From Phormidium tanganyikae FI6-MK23 (GTDB lineage: Bacteria > Cyanobacteriota > Cyanobacteriia > Leptolyngbyales > Leptolyngbyaceae), in contig JAHHHU010000009.1 of the NCBI GenBank assembly GCA_019359175.1, forward strand, positions 62,001-126,000: a stretch of 64,000 nucleotides of DNA. Direction: 5' to 3'. A program made the position numbers and the translations under genes. The notes under the pieces are model-generated. The model had not been told where the DNA came from. It saw only the letters and a program-made list of their open reading frames with translations, and ran no database searches. How positions within the stretch are numbered: the first letter of the stretch is position 1; each line of letters opens with the position of its first letter. Below, piece after piece: positions 8,028 through 14,194 of the stretch.

Positions 8028-8708
8028 CTAAGGAATATAAACGGGCATCGGTTCGATTCCAAGCTCCGATCGCCATTCTGCTAACGGCTTTTCCCAATGT
8101 TCTTCCCATCTCTGGGCGAGAAGCGGCTTTGCTTTTGCACCCATTCGATAGCCTGAAGCGACTCGATCGAGCAAGCGATCTAACTGTTCCGGTTGGTTCA
8201 GCATCGTGCTAACGAATGCACCCGCAATTAGAATTCCAGCCAAGGGGCGACGAGTTTGTGAGAGTTCAAATGCTTTGAGTCCTATTTCACCCGGAACATC
8301 GACACTCATTCCGGTGATAACGTGCCAAATATCGTGAGTTTGGCGCAGTCGAAACAGCAGGCAGGTTTCATCATCGACGACTTCCATTTTGCGGTAGAAA
8401 CCGGGATCAAAGCCTGAAGATGAAATGTACTGAGCAAACGCATATCCCAGAGAATTTGTCGGGCAGGTCATCAATTTTGCTAATTCTGGTACGGGAGCAG
8501 AATAGCGATCGTGTGCCAAAGCTGCCACGTCTGGGTGTTTCAGCATATATTTGACCGATGCCGCCATCGTTTGCGGATGCGATCGTACTAATGCGTCTTC
8601 GACATCGTAAATTGATTCGGTTTGTGTTGGATCTCTCAATAAACCGAGAACGGATTTCAGCGTATTTAGATAATCTAAATTCAGGCGACGTAGTTCTTTG
8701 AAGTGCAT
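8028..8708 (-). CDS. Coq4 family protein
   Basis: 226 residues with the Coq4 zinc-ligand motif HDxxHx11E, seen as HDIWH then 11 residues to Glu (near residues 127-144). In eukaryotes and proteobacteria Coq4 supports ubiquinone synthesis. Cyanobacteria make plastoquinone instead, and the role of their Coq4 homologues is not established to my knowledge. Domain length matches the family. The gene sits just downstream of ureB on the same strand (62 bp), the place where ureC is often found, so cotranscription with urease genes is possible but a functional tie is not implied. Confidence 0.85.
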   Translation of the reverse strand: MHFKELRRLNLDYLNTLKSVLGLLRDPTQTESIYDVEDALVRSHPQTMAASVKYMLKHPDVAALAHDRYSAPVPELAKLMTCPTNSLGYAFAQYISSSGFDPGFYRKMEVVDDETCLLFRLRQTHDIWHVITGMSVDVPGEIGLKAFELSQTRRPLAGILIAGAFVSTMLNQPEQLDRLLDRVASGYRMGAKAKPLLAQRWEEHWEKPLAEWRSELGIEPMPVYIP

Positions 8709-8770: not shown

Positions 8771-9112
8771 TTATTTAGATTTCTTCTTACCCTTTTTCGG
8801 TTTCTCATCGAGTGCGCCTTCGATTTTGGCGTTGAATCCGTAGACTTGTCGAGATCCTGCTAATGCAACCAGTGTCACTTCTCGATCGTCTCCCGGTTCA
8901 AACCGTATCGCTGTGCCTGCTGGAATATCGAGCCGCATTCCACGGGCACGATCGCGATCGAATTCTAATGCCGCATTCACTTCAAAAAAATGAAAGTGTG
9001 ATCCGACTTGAATTGGTCGATCGCCCTGATTCGCCACACTTAACGTTACGGTTTCGCGTCCTGCGTTCAGTTCGATCTCACCGTCTTCGACAAACATTTC
9101 GCCTGGGATCAT
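8771..9112 (-). CDS. ureB: Urease subunit beta
   Basis: 113 residues starting [20 protein letters not shown], with the family signature [12 protein letters not shown] and the [18 protein letters not shown] segment. UreB is a structural subunit of the nickel urease that splits urea to ammonia and CO2; the active site is in UreC. A Lys-rich tail (KKGKKKSK) ends the protein. The frame is open to 9202, but the upstream part is a palindromic repeat, so the ATG at 9112 is the start. The repeat separates it from ureA, which probably weakens ureA-ureB translational coupling. ureC does not follow. Confidence 0.95.
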
Positions 9113-9144
9113 TGTTGTTTTCTCCTTCAGATTGCTTGGGGTTC

Positions 9145-9231
9145 GCCCCCTAAATCCCCCACTCTTGGGGGACTTCAAACCAAAAAGCTTTCCCATTATC
9201 AAAGTCCCCCAGAATGGGAGATTTAGGGGGC
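9145..9231. repeat. Palindromic MITE-like element, copy 1
   Basis: An 87-bp element with inverted ends GCCCCCTAAATCCCCCA and its complement, and an internal GGGGGACTT / AAGTCCCCC pair, able to fold into one long hairpin. A sister copy with nearly the same ends and an AGCTTT centre is at 48899-48979. It lies between ureA and ureB. Such non-coding palindromes are common in cyanobacterial genomes and may be moved by a transposase in trans. Confidence 0.75.
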
Positions 9232-9272: not shown

Positions 9273-9575
9273 CTATCGAATCGGGTGATGAACGGTCACT
9301 AACTTCGTTCCATCCGGGAAAGTGGCTTCAACTTGGACTTCGTGAATCATCTCAGAAATGCCGTCCATCACATCATCCTGAGTCAGCAACGTCGTTCCAT
9401 AGTTCATCAATTCGGCAACGGTTTGTCCGTCTCTTGCGCCTTCGAGAATTGCCGCAGAAAGATACGCGATCGCTTCAGGATAGTTCAATTTCAATCCTCT
9501 GGCTTTGCGGCGTTCCGCGACTAAAGCGGCGGTAAAAATGAGAAGCTTATCCTTTTCTTGCGGTGTTAGTTGCAT
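9273..9575 (-). CDS. ureA: Urease subunit gamma
   Basis: 100 residues, the full usual length, beginning [20 protein letters not shown] and containing [20 protein letters not shown] and a VTVHHPIR terminus, all characteristic of UreA. It is a structural subunit of the trimer-of-trimers urease. In most cyanobacteria ureD, ureA, ureB and ureC are consecutive. Here ureD is 3.8 kb upstream beyond two secreted-protein genes and ureB follows after a palindromic repeat. Confidence 0.96.
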
Positions 9576-9727: not shown

Positions 9728-11686
9728 CTACTGGACTCCAAACGCTGAAACGATGCTGCTTGCAGCTTCTCGAACCTCCTGAGATTCGTCGCCCTGCGCG
9801 AGTTGCTTCACGATTTGCCGCACTTCAGGAAACTGGTCTTGAACTTGCCACAAGTTCTTTAGCAATGCCAGTTTGACTTTCGCTGATTTGTCGGTCTGTA
9901 GCGCTTGCTTCTGGCTCTGAAAGCTCTCTGGTGACATCTCACGAAATCCTAACGCAACTGCCGCTTCGACTCGAACGGTTTCTTCTGCATCGGTGCTGAG
10001 GGCTTGTGTCAATCGTCGATCGACAACTGGATCGGGAACAAGTCGCAGTGCAGAAATTGCCACGGCTCGAATCTCAGCTTGTGGTGAATCCGCGAATTGG
10101 GTAACTGAACTTAGCGATCGAGATAAGCCAGCATTGCCGAGCACCAGTAAATTCTGTCTCAGCTCATCGGGAGATTTTGCGGTCTTGAGTTGATCGAGAA
10201 AGCGATCTGCGATCGAGTTTGCGCGATCGGGAGCGGATTGAGCAAGATTGTGAGCAACAGTACCGAGGGCAAGTTGCGCGGTTGATGCAATCTGCGCCTC
10301 GCTGGAGTGAAAGGCTAAATCGCTCAACACTTTGACTGTCTCTGAAGTCGGAGCCGTCACACTTGCAAGGCTTGGAATCAGGACAGATAGAGATTCCCAA
10401 TCTTCGTGGGACTGAATGATTTGAACTAAAGCAGCTTGTGCCTGTGGGTGTCCAACTGCACCGAGCGCACCTACGATCAGTTGCATCGATTGATTGGGTT
10501 TGCTCTTGATGATACGTTGCGCTAAACGTGCACTGGTTTCTGGTCGAACATAAATTAGAGCTTTTACCTTGAGATAGAGTTCGGTTGTGTTTTGGGCTTT
10601 GTCTGATGATTTTTCTAGCAGGTCTAATTCCGACGACAAGCTTTCTAATGTGCTTTCTCCTAACTGTTGTCGCTGAATTTTTGCTTCGGATTCTTGTTCA
10701 GAAATGGTGTAGGAAAGCGCGATCGCTTTAGTTTGACGTGATGTATTCGCTTTTTGCAGGGTTGCAAGCTCGGCTGCACTGAGCTGATTCTGCTCCAAAT
10801 AAGTCAAGTTTAGAGTTGTTTCGCTTTGTCCAATCTTTTTCTTAGAGACCTCAAAGTTCTGAGTTTCTGTCCCGCTCAGAGAGACAAGGCGACCCGCTTT
10901 TGAATCGAATTTTGCGCTGAGTTGCCCCTGTGGTGTGATGATTGGTGTCAGTTTAGCGCCTCTGGGCTTCTGCGCTGGCTGTACATAGCGCAACTTCGAC
11001 TTCTGGAATTGATCAAAACTGCTGCGATACTGAGCAATATATTGACCGTTGGGATCATCTTCCTGGGTTTCCCAAGTGTTCGACGTTGGAGATTTAGCGG
11101 TGACAAACTGAGTCGAAGCCAACAGCGATCGAGCAAAACTTTGAGCAATGCTGCTCATGCTCGGATCGAAGCGCACAGATAGAATTTTTCCTTGAGCATC
11201 CACCTCAGCAAAGATATCTTGATTGAGATCTTTCTGAACCAGTTGGGCTTGTTCTACGATCGATTGACCATTCGAGGTGATTTGCACAGTCAGATTTTGT
11301 AAACGGTAAGCGAGGATTGCGCGATCGTGGTTTTGTTCTAAAACAGTCATGACTAAATCCGCTTGCACCCGATTCTCAAACGCATTTACAAACGTACTTG
11401 GAGCCGCTGGATCAGAGTTGTTGCCTTGTTTAAGATCACTAAACAACGCGCGTAAATCAGAGTTCGCGACATTGCGATAGTCCAACTTGTAAGTTAAGCG
11501 CTCTCCCACTTTGAACTGATACTTTGGTGATGCCTGATTCACTAGCGACGAACTAAGAACTGTACCAAACTCGCTGATCTGTTTGCTACAGCCATACATC
11601 CCAGGAATTGCGAATGCAAGTAACAATCCCGATAGTGCAATGATCGATCGTCGATGCAGGGGAAATGCTTTTTTACTCGAAGTCAT
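9728..11686 (-). CDS. HEAT-repeat lipoprotein with a lipid-transfer-like layout
   Basis: 652 residues. A signal peptide ends in MYGC with a candidate lipidation Cys33, so it is probably a lipoprotein. Residues 50-300 are beta-rich (YQFKVGERLTYKLDYRN and similar). Residues 320-652 are helical HEAT-like repeats (ALGAVGHPQAQAAL, AVAISALRLVPDP, EAAVALGFREM). A beta sheet followed by a helical superhelix recalls large lipid-transfer proteins such as vitellogenin N-terminal modules; that resemblance is my inference from pattern. It is cotranscribed with the secreted protein gene 85 bp upstream. The pair sits between ureA and ureD without an obvious link to urease. Confidence 0.7.
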   Translation of the reverse strand: MTSSKKAFPLHRRSIIALSGLLLAFAIPGMYGCSKQISEFGTVLSSSLVNQASPKYQFKVGERLTYKLDYRNVANSDLRALFSDLKQGNNSDPAAPSTFVNAFENRVQADLVMTVLEQNHDRAILAYRLQNLTVQITSNGQSIVEQAQLVQKDLNQDIFAEVDAQGKILSVRFDPSMSSIAQSFARSLLASTQFVTAKSPTSNTWETQEDDPNGQYIAQYRSSFDQFQKSKLRYVQPAQKPRGAKLTPIITPQGQLSAKFDSKAGRLVSLSGTETQNFEVSKKKIGQSETTLNLTYLEQNQLSAAELATLQKANTSRQTKAIALSYTISEQESEAKIQRQQLGESTLESLSSELDLLEKSSDKAQNTTELYLKVKALIYVRPETSARLAQRIIKSKPNQSMQLIVGALGAVGHPQAQAALVQIIQSHEDWESLSVLIPSLASVTAPTSETVKVLSDLAFHSSEAQIASTAQLALGTVAHNLAQSAPDRANSIADRFLDQLKTAKSPDELRQNLLVLGNAGLSRSLSSVTQFADSPQAEIRAVAISALRLVPDPVVDRRLTQALSTDAEETVRVEAAVALGFREMSPESFQSQKQALQTDKSAKVKLALLKNLWQVQDQFPEVRQIVKQLAQGDESQEVREAASSIVSAFGVQ

Positions 11687-11771
11687 AATCTAAATCTCTC
11701 AAGAGCAGTGGAGTTAGCAATTCCGTCTTTCGAGACAGCAAAAGACGGAATAATCAACATTCGTTCAATCG

Positions 11772-13172
11772 TTACAGCGGCACAGTGTAAGCTTCATCAA
11801 ACAGATAGCCATCGGTCTTGAAGCCTTGCCAACTCCAGATATTCCAGTTCCACTGCTTCTTCTTCCACGGCGGAATGCCAAACTTCGGAACATACATGTA
11901 AGCATAGGCGTAGGCATTTCCGCTCAAAGCATCGATCGTGTTGTAAGCCGAGAAATTCATCACCATTGAGGGCTTGCTGGTTGTAAGTCCAGCCAGATAC
12001 GCTTGACCCCGCATATCCAGATCGTCGCGCACCAGCGTTAAGTTTGCACCCACACCTGCACCAGCGAGATAGATATCCGCGCCGCCTTGACCATACGCTT
12101 TCGAGTCCACGAACGGATTGACACGCGCATACGCCGAAGCATACGCCGGATTTGCTGCGACCGTATACTGAATTCCAGCACTTCCTTGCACCCCAAACGT
12201 GGCTCTCATCGGAATCGGACCTAAGCTAAACCGCAAATCTGCGATCGGTTGATCCACAGAGCGCGAGAAGGAGTCCGACTTAATCAGCAAGGTGTTGCGG
12301 CTGTCTTGGAAGTTATAAACATTTTGTCCAACTACATCCAGCCGAACCGCAACCTTAGCGTTGCCAGACTTTTGCGAACTCATCGACGCGGTTGCCCGCA
12401 GCAAGTTGGCTTGATTGTTGAAAATGTAGCCGCCCGCATTGCCTTCAGCGTAGGCGTTGGAGAAATTTTTCGACCCTTGAAGCTGAAGTTTTCCATTGAC
12501 ATAAGCCGAGAACGTATTGGGATTTCCCAGGTTATAGTTCCAGGATTTGCTGTAGCCTTTGGTCGGACTCCCAACGGCTGGCAGAATTTTATCGAGAAAC
12601 TCCGGCTTGATAACCCGCAGTTGTTTTTGTTGCAAGGTGTTGAGGTCGAAGCGGGGATTGAGTTGCAGATTTTGCAGTGCACCAGGGCGAATTTGAAGAT
12701 CGGGTGCTCTTTGCAGTTCATCCGAGATCCGAGTCGGATCAAGACTGGTTTTGAACAGCGATCTCTCTGGACTAACTTTGCGGTGTTCGTTTGACAGGGA
12801 ATCGACTTGCTTTCTCAACTCGGATGCGTCGATTACCGATTCTTGCAGAACGACGGATTCTTCGGGCTGCCGGAACGAGTACCCAATTTGACTGAACTGT
12901 TGCTCTAGGCGGTTGAGTTCAGCATAGTACTCGCCTGCTTTGACTTGTTTGCCGTCGGGCAGGGTGAGTACTGTGTCGGGCGAAATCGGCTTGCCAGTTT
13001 CGGGATCTTGCACCTCGAACCGCTCGAATTGAACGGGAGCGCGCTTGAGCACCCGCACTGCATCCGATTTGACTTCGAGTTGCCGGGCTTGTGCGAGGAC
13101 TGGCAAAGAACCCGCGAGATTGAGCGCAGAAAGCGTAACCAGTGAGCTAAGCGCAATAAAACGTTTAGACAT
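11772..13172 (-). CDS. Secreted hypothetical protein, aromatic-rich C-terminus
   Basis: 466 residues with a clear signal peptide (SLVTLSALNLAGSLPVLAQA, cleavage near residue 28). The middle is polar and helical (about 60-150). The C-terminal 270 residues are rich in Tyr, Asn, Gly and Ala in alternating patterns (NAYAYAYMYVPKFG, WNWNIWSW), suggesting a large beta-structure. No cysteine pairs or enzyme motif are evident. It is the first gene of an operon with the HEAT-repeat lipoprotein, so the two may act together outside the cell or in the periplasm. Family not recognised. Confidence 0.65.
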   Translation of the reverse strand: MSKRFIALSSLVTLSALNLAGSLPVLAQARQLEVKSDAVRVLKRAPVQFERFEVQDPETGKPISPDTVLTLPDGKQVKAGEYYAELNRLEQQFSQIGYSFRQPEESVVLQESVIDASELRKQVDSLSNEHRKVSPERSLFKTSLDPTRISDELQRAPDLQIRPGALQNLQLNPRFDLNTLQQKQLRVIKPEFLDKILPAVGSPTKGYSKSWNYNLGNPNTFSAYVNGKLQLQGSKNFSNAYAEGNAGGYIFNNQANLLRATASMSSQKSGNAKVAVRLDVVGQNVYNFQDSRNTLLIKSDSFSRSVDQPIADLRFSLGPIPMRATFGVQGSAGIQYTVAANPAYASAYARVNPFVDSKAYGQGGADIYLAGAGVGANLTLVRDDLDMRGQAYLAGLTTSKPSMVMNFSAYNTIDALSGNAYAYAYMYVPKFGIPPWKKKQWNWNIWSWQGFKTDGYLFDEAYTVPL

Positions 13173-13339: not shown

Positions 13340-14194
13340 TCAAAGCTGCCAAACTCTAGGAATGCACACTGCTCGACCGGACATCGATCGTACTAATCCC
13401 CAAATCGCAATTAACCAACGTCGCGCATCGGTGCTGGAATGTCCTCGATATCGACAAAGTAAGCCAAGCGGTAAGCGTGTGACTCCAATTTCGCCAGATG
13501 TTCCTGTCCAAAGAGATCGCGCCTTTTCCACACATTCAGAATCGACTTTCTGCCCAATCCAAACGAAACTCGCGACGATCGGACAACCTGCTAAACCATG
13601 CGGACTATTAAAACTCGTTTCACTTCCGGGGAGCCATTGTCGATCGATCCAAATTGGTTTCCCATCTTGCCAAACTTCAGTGCGCGATCGCCAATCGCCT
13701 TCGATAAATTTCTCTCCTCGCGCACTCCGTCCAAACCGCGTAATTTCCCAACCGATCCACTGTGCGCCCGGAGCCAGATTTACCCGCATTTCTTGACGAA
13801 ACAAGGCTTGATTAAACACGATCGTATCGAGCGGCAGCCATTCTAAACAAGTCCCTTCCGCTAAATCGATTTCGATCGTTTGTTGAGCTTCGCGCCCATT
13901 GGTTCGATAAATCTTAGTGGCTGCGGGAGTCGTGATCAGCGCTTTGCTGTTCGGTGCAAGGCGGAAATCGAAGGTTAAGCGATCGCCGCCCACGATTCCG
14001 CCCGCAGTGTGCATGATCACACTGTGACAAACCTCGCCGCCCTCCGGATAGAAGGGGCGTTGCACCTTAAGGGGAGCCTGTCCTTGATTGCGAATAAGCT
14101 GTGTTACACCGCGTCGATTTTCAAAACCCAGGCGCAATGTGCCATGCCAGTCGTTGGGGGATAAATCAGAGGAAACAGGACGAGATTGGTTCAC
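13340..14194 (-). CDS. ureD: Urease accessory protein UreD
   Basis: 284 residues, the usual UreD length. Family features include the WHGTLRLGFENRRGVTQL start, HTAGGIVGGDRL, TTPAATKIYRTNG and LEWLPLDTIVFNQA. UreD (UreH) scaffolds the UreFG complex on apo-urease during nickel insertion. It is the first gene of the dispersed urease set on this strand, followed at 167 bp by the secreted/HEAT pair rather than by ureA. UreE, UreF and UreG are not in the window. Confidence 0.95.
   Translation of the reverse strand: MNQSRPVSSDLSPNDWHGTLRLGFENRRGVTQLIRNQGQAPLKVQRPFYPEGGEVCHSVIMHTAGGIVGGDRLTFDFRLAPNSKALITTPAATKIYRTNGREAQQTIEIDLAEGTCLEWLPLDTIVFNQALFRQEMRVNLAPGAQWIGWEITRFGRSARGEKFIEGDWRSRTEVWQDGKPIWIDRQWLPGSETSFNSPHGLAGCPIVASFVWIGQKVDSECVEKARSLWTGTSGEIGVTRLPLGLLCRYRGHSSTDARRWLIAIWGLVRSMSGRAVCIPRVWQL

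Follow-up and report, generated by a model that had tools for sequence, protein, structure and literature searches.

A probable split bacterial homologue of the LLT module of vitellogenin and MTP, encoded between ureD and ureA in a cyanobacterium

The locus and its genes

The window, which is the whole 64,000 nucleotide stretch of Phormidium tanganyikae FI6-MK23 DNA that was analysed, carries two adjacent genes whose products are called protein 1 (P0001) and protein 2 (P0002) here; their features are collected in Table 1, where LLT stands for large lipid transfer, LLTP for a member of that superfamily (vitellogenin/apoB/MTP) and MTP for the large subunit of the microsomal triglyceride transfer protein. 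The minus strand gene order is ureD, the protein 2 gene, the protein 1 gene, ureA and ureB, and both open reading frames lie between the genes that match PF01774 and PF00547, so the original prediction was correct in that the pair separates ureD from ureA. Comparison of the window with two congeners whose proteins are 73–78% identical gave a dN/dS of ~0.11–0.14 for both genes; both open reading frames are real genes under purifying selection. The short hairpin between the two genes is not a clear terminator because it has no T run, and promoter and terminator scans at the locus gave nothing above shuffled sequences.

Table 1. Features of the two-gene pair and its neighbours (window coordinates)
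Feature	Position	Strand	Basis
ureB	8771-9202	-	beyond ureA
ureA, downstream neighbour, context only	9273..9575	-	PF00547 2.2e-47
Protein 1 (P0001, 652 aa): export signal/anchor, beta-rich N domain and HEAT domain; probable LLT-module homologue	9728..11686	-	Pfam, profiles, AF2, Foldseek
Protein 1 HEAT/helical domain, residues 336-652	9731..10681	-	PF13646 8.7e-17; PF01347 1.9e-14, profile 331-584; confident AF2 helices
Protein 1 N-terminal beta domain, residues ~50-335; probable counterpart of the LLTP N-sheet barrel	10682..11539	-	low-confidence AF2 strands; PF01347 in relatives; PDB profile
Protein 1 LLT-type motif, residues 162-223: VDAQGKI..VRF..........FARSLLASTQFV...TWETQEDDPNGQYIAQYR	11018..11203	-	aligned to P0007 and lipovitellin/MTP
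13-bp hairpin between the two genes	11720..11751	-	z -1.9 for 91-nt region
Protein 2 (P0002, 466 aa): secreted partner with amphipathic-beta C domain	11772..13172	-	sequence; no Pfam family
Protein 2 C-terminal beta domain, residues 203-466; common to the C-termini of Haur_5045 and NI389_RS18060	11775..12566	-	hhalign; beta-amphipathicity z=3.8
Protein 2 signal peptide, MSKRFIALSSLVTLSALNLAGSLPVLA/Q	13092..13172	-	read from sequence
ureD, upstream neighbour, context only	13340..14194	-	PF01774 3.7e-64

The earlier description of the pair as lying inside the urease cluster holds for its position and not for any link with urease, since ureC is on a separate contig from the window and the pair is missing from the ureD–ureA region of five of the eight congeners. 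In four of these five the ureD–ureA spacing is 167–193 bp, and in the fifth an 830 bp gap is filled by a HigB-like toxin gene and an HTH antitoxin gene (a HigBA-like pair); the pair itself is present between ureD and ureA in the remaining three congeners, the window genome counted in. The ureD–ureA gap thus takes different inserts, as the congeners have either nothing, the HigBA-like pair or the protein 1 and 2 genes there, and the place of our pair among the urease genes is an insertion, a positional link only. An accessory role in urease was rejected on this inconstant presence in urease operons.

Properties of the two proteins

An N-terminal hydrophobic export signal can be read from the sequence of every protein 1 relative. 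Protein 1 had originally been called a lipoprotein, and this label did not survive: the lipobox around its Cys residue 33, M-Y-G-C, is a poor one and occurs in the window protein only, and lipid anchoring through an invariant lipobox Cys was rejected, since that Cys is missing from all four relatives and protein 1 is therefore not a credible lipoprotein. The predicted arrangement of a beta-rich half followed by a HEAT half was borne out, as the C-terminal half matches the Pfam family HEAT_2 (2.1e-15) and the AF2 model has strands first and then ~20 helices.

Protein 2 begins with a signal peptide of the standard type (VLA/QA, again read from the sequence), and its C-terminal domain contains 11.7% A, 9.5% G, 8.7% S, 8.7% N and 7.2% Y, in agreement with the earlier view of a secreted, Tyr/Gly/Asn-rich partner. 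No Pfam or NCBIfam family was found for this protein. The beta-type amphipathicity of its C-terminal domain exceeds that of shuffled sequences in three family members (z 3.1–3.8), and the alpha-type amphipathicity of the domain does not exceed shuffles. Comparison of the domain with solved proteins gave no significant sequence similarity and no match to any solved LLTP sheet, and the AF2 model of protein 2, with a pLDDT of 32, was left unused.

Co-occurrence in cyanobacteria

Among 58 relatives, homologues of protein 1 (>40% identity) and of protein 2 are present in the same four genomes at five loci, and the two genes are adjacent in all five. A protein 1 N-domain profile found 4 of 388 genomes of the class and a partner profile 4 of 338, these being the same four genomes and the same five loci; a broader partner profile added no members in the order or the phylum, and a scan of genome contigs returned only the copy of the congeneric Cyanobacteria bacterium FACHB-63. 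Three of the five copies occupy a ureD–ureA gap, one lies beside a ShlB-type two-partner secretion gene and one is near kinase genes and an SLH protein gene. The two proteins diverge in parallel, with identities of 74/78, 73/77, 50/50 and 41/40% for proteins 1 and 2, respectively, so that the most distant cyanobacterial protein 1 copies are ~41% identical. The two genes, whose co-occurrence had been proposed as a check of the original prediction, were thus always found together in cyanobacteria, and it is quite probable that their products form one functional unit.

Relatives outside the cyanobacteria

Beyond the cyanobacteria we searched plasmid records (with tblastn) and IMG/VR. Protein 1 matched a single plasmid record, that of the Herpetosiphon aurantiacus plasmid pHAU01, where it found Haur_5045 (P0007, 862 aa), a protein whose deposited annotation reads "Lipid transport protein domain". 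Protein 2 also matched a single plasmid record, from Pseudoalteromonas xiamenensis, in which the partner gene NI389_RS18060 is directly followed by NI389_RS18065, a gene for a beta-plus-HEAT protein of 562 aa. Six further plasmid tblastn queries gave no new members (a loose query gave only a chance Vibrio match), and IMG/VR scans with both families and the outside relatives found no relatives. The genes have a patchy occurrence in bacteria, with some copies on plasmids.

Residues 133–613 of Haur_5045 align with the protein 1 family across both the N domain and the HEAT region (hhalign 97.8%, 9.5e-13), and residues 589–800 align with the protein 2 family with moderate strength (hhalign 83.8%, 7.8e-6); the partner domain as a whole occupies residues ~570–862. 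The order of domains in this protein is barrel, HEAT and beta domain, as in vitellogenin and MTP, and by these alignments Haur_5045 is apparently a natural fusion of proteins 1 and 2 in the vitellogenin/MTP order. It is homologous to both window proteins and differs from them in being one fused chain of 862 aa on a Chloroflexota plasmid. The Herpetosiphon alignment pairs a conserved partner block, VDLAV..AGIGV, with ADIYLAGAGVGAN, and the block is seen again in Pseudoalteromonas.

The Pseudoalteromonas genes form an adjacent pair as in the window. The partner (P0003) aligns strongly with the protein 2 C-terminal domain (hhalign 98.7%, 4.5e-16), and it differs from protein 2 in being longer, with a CARDB-like domain (just below the cut-off) at its N-terminus and a lipobox, LSAC. 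The link of the HEAT protein NI389_RS18065 to the cyanobacterial family is weak in direct comparison (full length hhalign 3%, 0.014) and depends on the PF01347 match that the protein itself gives, described below. N-domain-only alignment of the cyanobacterial proteins with the two outside relatives is likewise weak (hhalign 16%, 0.0016), and the N domains of members in the three phyla are 16–25% identical to that of Herpetosiphon.

Similarity to vitellogenin and MTP

Two protein 1 orthologues (~50% and 41% identity) each score 46.3 bits against Pfam Vitellogenin_N (PF01347), whose cut-off is 24 bits, and the Herpetosiphon fusion scores 56.4. Other cyanobacterial HEAT proteins also exceed this cut-off through the HEAT part of the model, and the N domain was tested alone because such HEAT-region matches are not specific. 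The isolated Herpetosiphon N domain matched PF01347 with 36.9 bits (2.3e-9) and that of Pseudoalteromonas with 26.0 bits (4.5e-6); PF01347 did not match the cyanobacterial N halves alone, that of the window protein included. The window N half is linked to PF01347 through its alignment with the Herpetosiphon protein given above. When a profile of seven N domains was run against 177,635 PDB sequences, the only hits were lipovitellin (0.0077) and two entries for MTP (0.55 and 0.56), three in total; with the outside relatives removed, the profile built from the remaining five cyanobacterial N domains had no match in the PDB.

The AF2 model of protein 1 was built from two sequences only and has a mean pLDDT of 61; its helical part is mostly at 75–92, and its N domain is of low confidence, with residues 147–295 below 50. 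A Foldseek search of 350,542 PDB chains with this model ranked MTP first to third (3.9e-10, 2.6e-9 and 3.2e-8, with alignments that span 604–653 columns), lipovitellin fifth (3.1e-6) and bee vitellogenin 16th (2.1e-5), and pure HEAT designs reached 1.7e-7 at best, an E-value ~400 times that of the best MTP match. VIA-align 2 superimposed residues 15–599 of the model on MTP 27–616 with a Z of 15.3 over 424 residues; the rmsd of 23 Å is high because the arrangement of the domains is not well predicted. Designed HEAT proteins reach a higher Z, but over the helical part alone, and the two-domain span is therefore the significant point of the MTP match. The fold of the model, a beta barrel (in the low-confidence N domain) followed by a HEAT-like helical arch, is not a plain HEAT fold. 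Taken with the fold search, the PF01347 matches (N-domain-only in the relatives), the PDB profile and the apparent fusion, this largely upholds the vitellogenin-like layout that had been predicted, and we consider it highly probable that protein 1 is homologous to the LLT module of vitellogenin and MTP.

MTP consists of a barrel (residues 22–297), a helical domain (298–603) and a C-terminal beta domain (604–894) that has lipid-binding activity (PMC3337244). Protein 1 has the same order as MTP (PDB 6i7s, 8eoj) of an N-terminal beta domain and then a HEAT-type helical domain, and the Herpetosiphon fusion is nearly equal to MTP in length (862 and 894 aa, respectively) and has its third, beta domain in the corresponding position. 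The differences are that MTP is one chain whereas the window form is encoded by two genes, that no sequence similarity could be detected between the third domains, that identity is only 12–14%, and that the PDI partner of MTP is not expected in a bacterium. With vitellogenin and lipovitellin (PDB 1lsh, 9ens) the N domain has in common a motif made up of a strand with G-K/R-I, an R-rich helix that closes with FQ/QF and a turn of the type E-x-D/G-x-x-G, in which the Cys of the animal proteins is a Tyr in the bacterial ones; the downstream vitellogenin domains and VWD had no match in any of the bacterial proteins.

Putative function and origin of the pair

Judged by sequence and predicted structure, we conclude that the pair represents the LLT module in a bacterial form divided between two genes, in which the partner beta domain would stand where animal LLTPs have their lipid-binding sheets. 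We favor, with a probability of about 55%, the reading that the pair is an exported bacterial two-gene LLT architecture that forms a complex with a hydrophobic, probably lipid, cargo. Both proteins would be exported by the signals described above. Protein 1, with its predicted N-terminal beta barrel and HEAT-type helical arch, would be the homologue of two parts of vitellogenin and MTP, the N-sheet and the helical domain, and the amphipathic beta domain of protein 2 would replace the animal C and A sheets, which protein 1 lacks, as its position in the Herpetosiphon fusion suggests. The two would most likely act as a single complex outside the cytoplasm, either periplasmic or on the cell surface; there the helical arch may brace the protein 2 sheet around a cargo that would be hydrophobic and probably lipid. 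The physical complex and its hydrophobic cavity are features that we infer, and the role of the partner as a lipid sheet is deduced from position and composition, because the domain matches no solved protein in sequence and its model is unusable. That the cargo of the pair is lipid or another hydrophobic substance is itself about an even bet.

A homologue of the LLT module could instead serve in protein–protein or surface binding (adhesion, matrix or a clotting-like assembly) with no lipid cargo. A clotting protein is in fact among the animal LLTPs (PMC1783640), the lipid-cavity domain is not recognisable here by sequence, the CARDB-like domain and lipobox of the Pseudoalteromonas relative would suit such a role, and the patchy, inserted distribution fits a surface accessory; the significant beta amphipathicity of the partner in three members, in a domain placed where LLTP lipid-binding sheets sit, argues against it, and we think it rather unlikely. 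It is improbable that protein 1 is an ordinary HEAT-repeat protein joined to an unrelated beta domain, its vitellogenin likeness being convergent or due to HEAT alone. The unrelated cyanobacterial HEAT regions that exceed the PF01347 cut-off and the lack of a direct match by the cyanobacterial N domain alone would agree with that idea, but the N domains of two relatives match PF01347 alone, the N-domain profile matches only LLTPs in the PDB, Foldseek places MTP above all pure HEAT chains, and the Herpetosiphon fusion keeps the same domain order.

Since LLTPs have been described from animals (PMC1783640) and the bacterial genes are scattered and in part on plasmids, a recent acquisition by bacteria from an animal might be considered. 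This is very improbable, however, as the members in three phyla are highly divergent in their N domains (16–25% identity to Herpetosiphon), these divergent members have in common a partner beta domain without a match among solved LLTPs, and even within cyanobacteria the most distant copies are only ~41% identical. A role of the pair in urease maturation or as a nickel factor would account for its presence in the ureD–ureA gap of three congeners, but in most congeners (five of eight) this gap does not contain it, other copies are away from urease genes, and both proteins have export signals whereas urease is cytoplasmic, which makes this extremely unlikely.

Returning to the two-gene LLT architecture, what is new here is the taxonomic range of a probable LLT-module homologue, its division between two genes and a third domain unlike that of the animal proteins. 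PMC1783640 and PMC3337244 describe the LLTP superfamily only from animals, and in the freely readable papers we found no description of LLTP or Vitellogenin_N proteins in bacteria; vitellogenin is not mentioned in the paper on the Herpetosiphon genome, and the domain is named only in the deposited annotation. We tentatively suggest that bacteria may have a branch of the LLT superfamily of their own, one that predates the animal branch or is independent of it and whose members would be exported lipid carriers, either in two parts or fused. With homologues in three bacterial phyla, the origin of LLTPs would become testable. Most of the bulk lipid moved in animals is carried by MTP, apoB, apolipophorin and vitellogenin, and, if our reading is true, these animal yolk and blood-lipid carriers have bacterial relatives that are open to study in culture, and bacteria have an unrecognised route for lipid handling outside the cytoplasm. 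The bacterial proteins would also be small, genetically tractable versions of LLTPs in which the scaffold and the putative cargo sheet are separate chains.

A split LLTP is not without precedent, since insect apolipophorin II/I and crustacean apolipocrustacein work as two chains, with the cleavage site inside the LLT module (PMC1783640). Those chains arise by proteolysis of one precursor, whereas the window pair is encoded by two genes, in an order that is the reverse of that in the Herpetosiphon fusion.

Vitellogenin_N matches and the ureD-ureA gap

The Pfam cut-off for Vitellogenin_N (PF01347, 24 bits) is exceeded through the HEAT part alone by HEAT-repeat proteins of many cyanobacteria, class-wide (for example at loci L031, L034, L040 and L041), and a match of this kind should not be taken for vitellogenin homology.

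The ureD-ureA gap looks like a site that receives differing inserts, since in a congener (locus L082; G006:C1, 1083-1724) it holds genes for a HigB-like toxin and an HTH antitoxin in place of the pair. The hairpin between the two genes of the pair is possibly an attenuator or an mRNA processing site.

Intergenic hairpin and Coq4-family gene in the window
Feature	Position	Location	Remarks
Hairpin, 13 bp	11720-11751	Between the genes of proteins 1 and 2	No T run
Coq4-family gene	8028-8708	After ureB	PF05019, 5e-31

Neighbouring genes

The Coq4-family gene retains its position in congeners, even though ubiquinone synthesis is not known from cyanobacteria. Elsewhere, genome G007 has its second copy of the pair beside a divergent gene for a ShlB/FhaC-type two-partner secretion transporter with POTRA domains (L080:5268-7028), and next to the Pseudoalteromonas pair lies an opposite-strand array of about ten small genes, alike in size at about 220 bp each (L027:15441-17801), the two terminal ones being annotated as EF-hand. 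Upstream of the apparent Herpetosiphon fusion of both proteins lies a gene for a family C25 (gingipain-type) peptidase (L028:9235-10212), which as annotated is without an obvious signal peptide and has transposase and integrase genes nearby.
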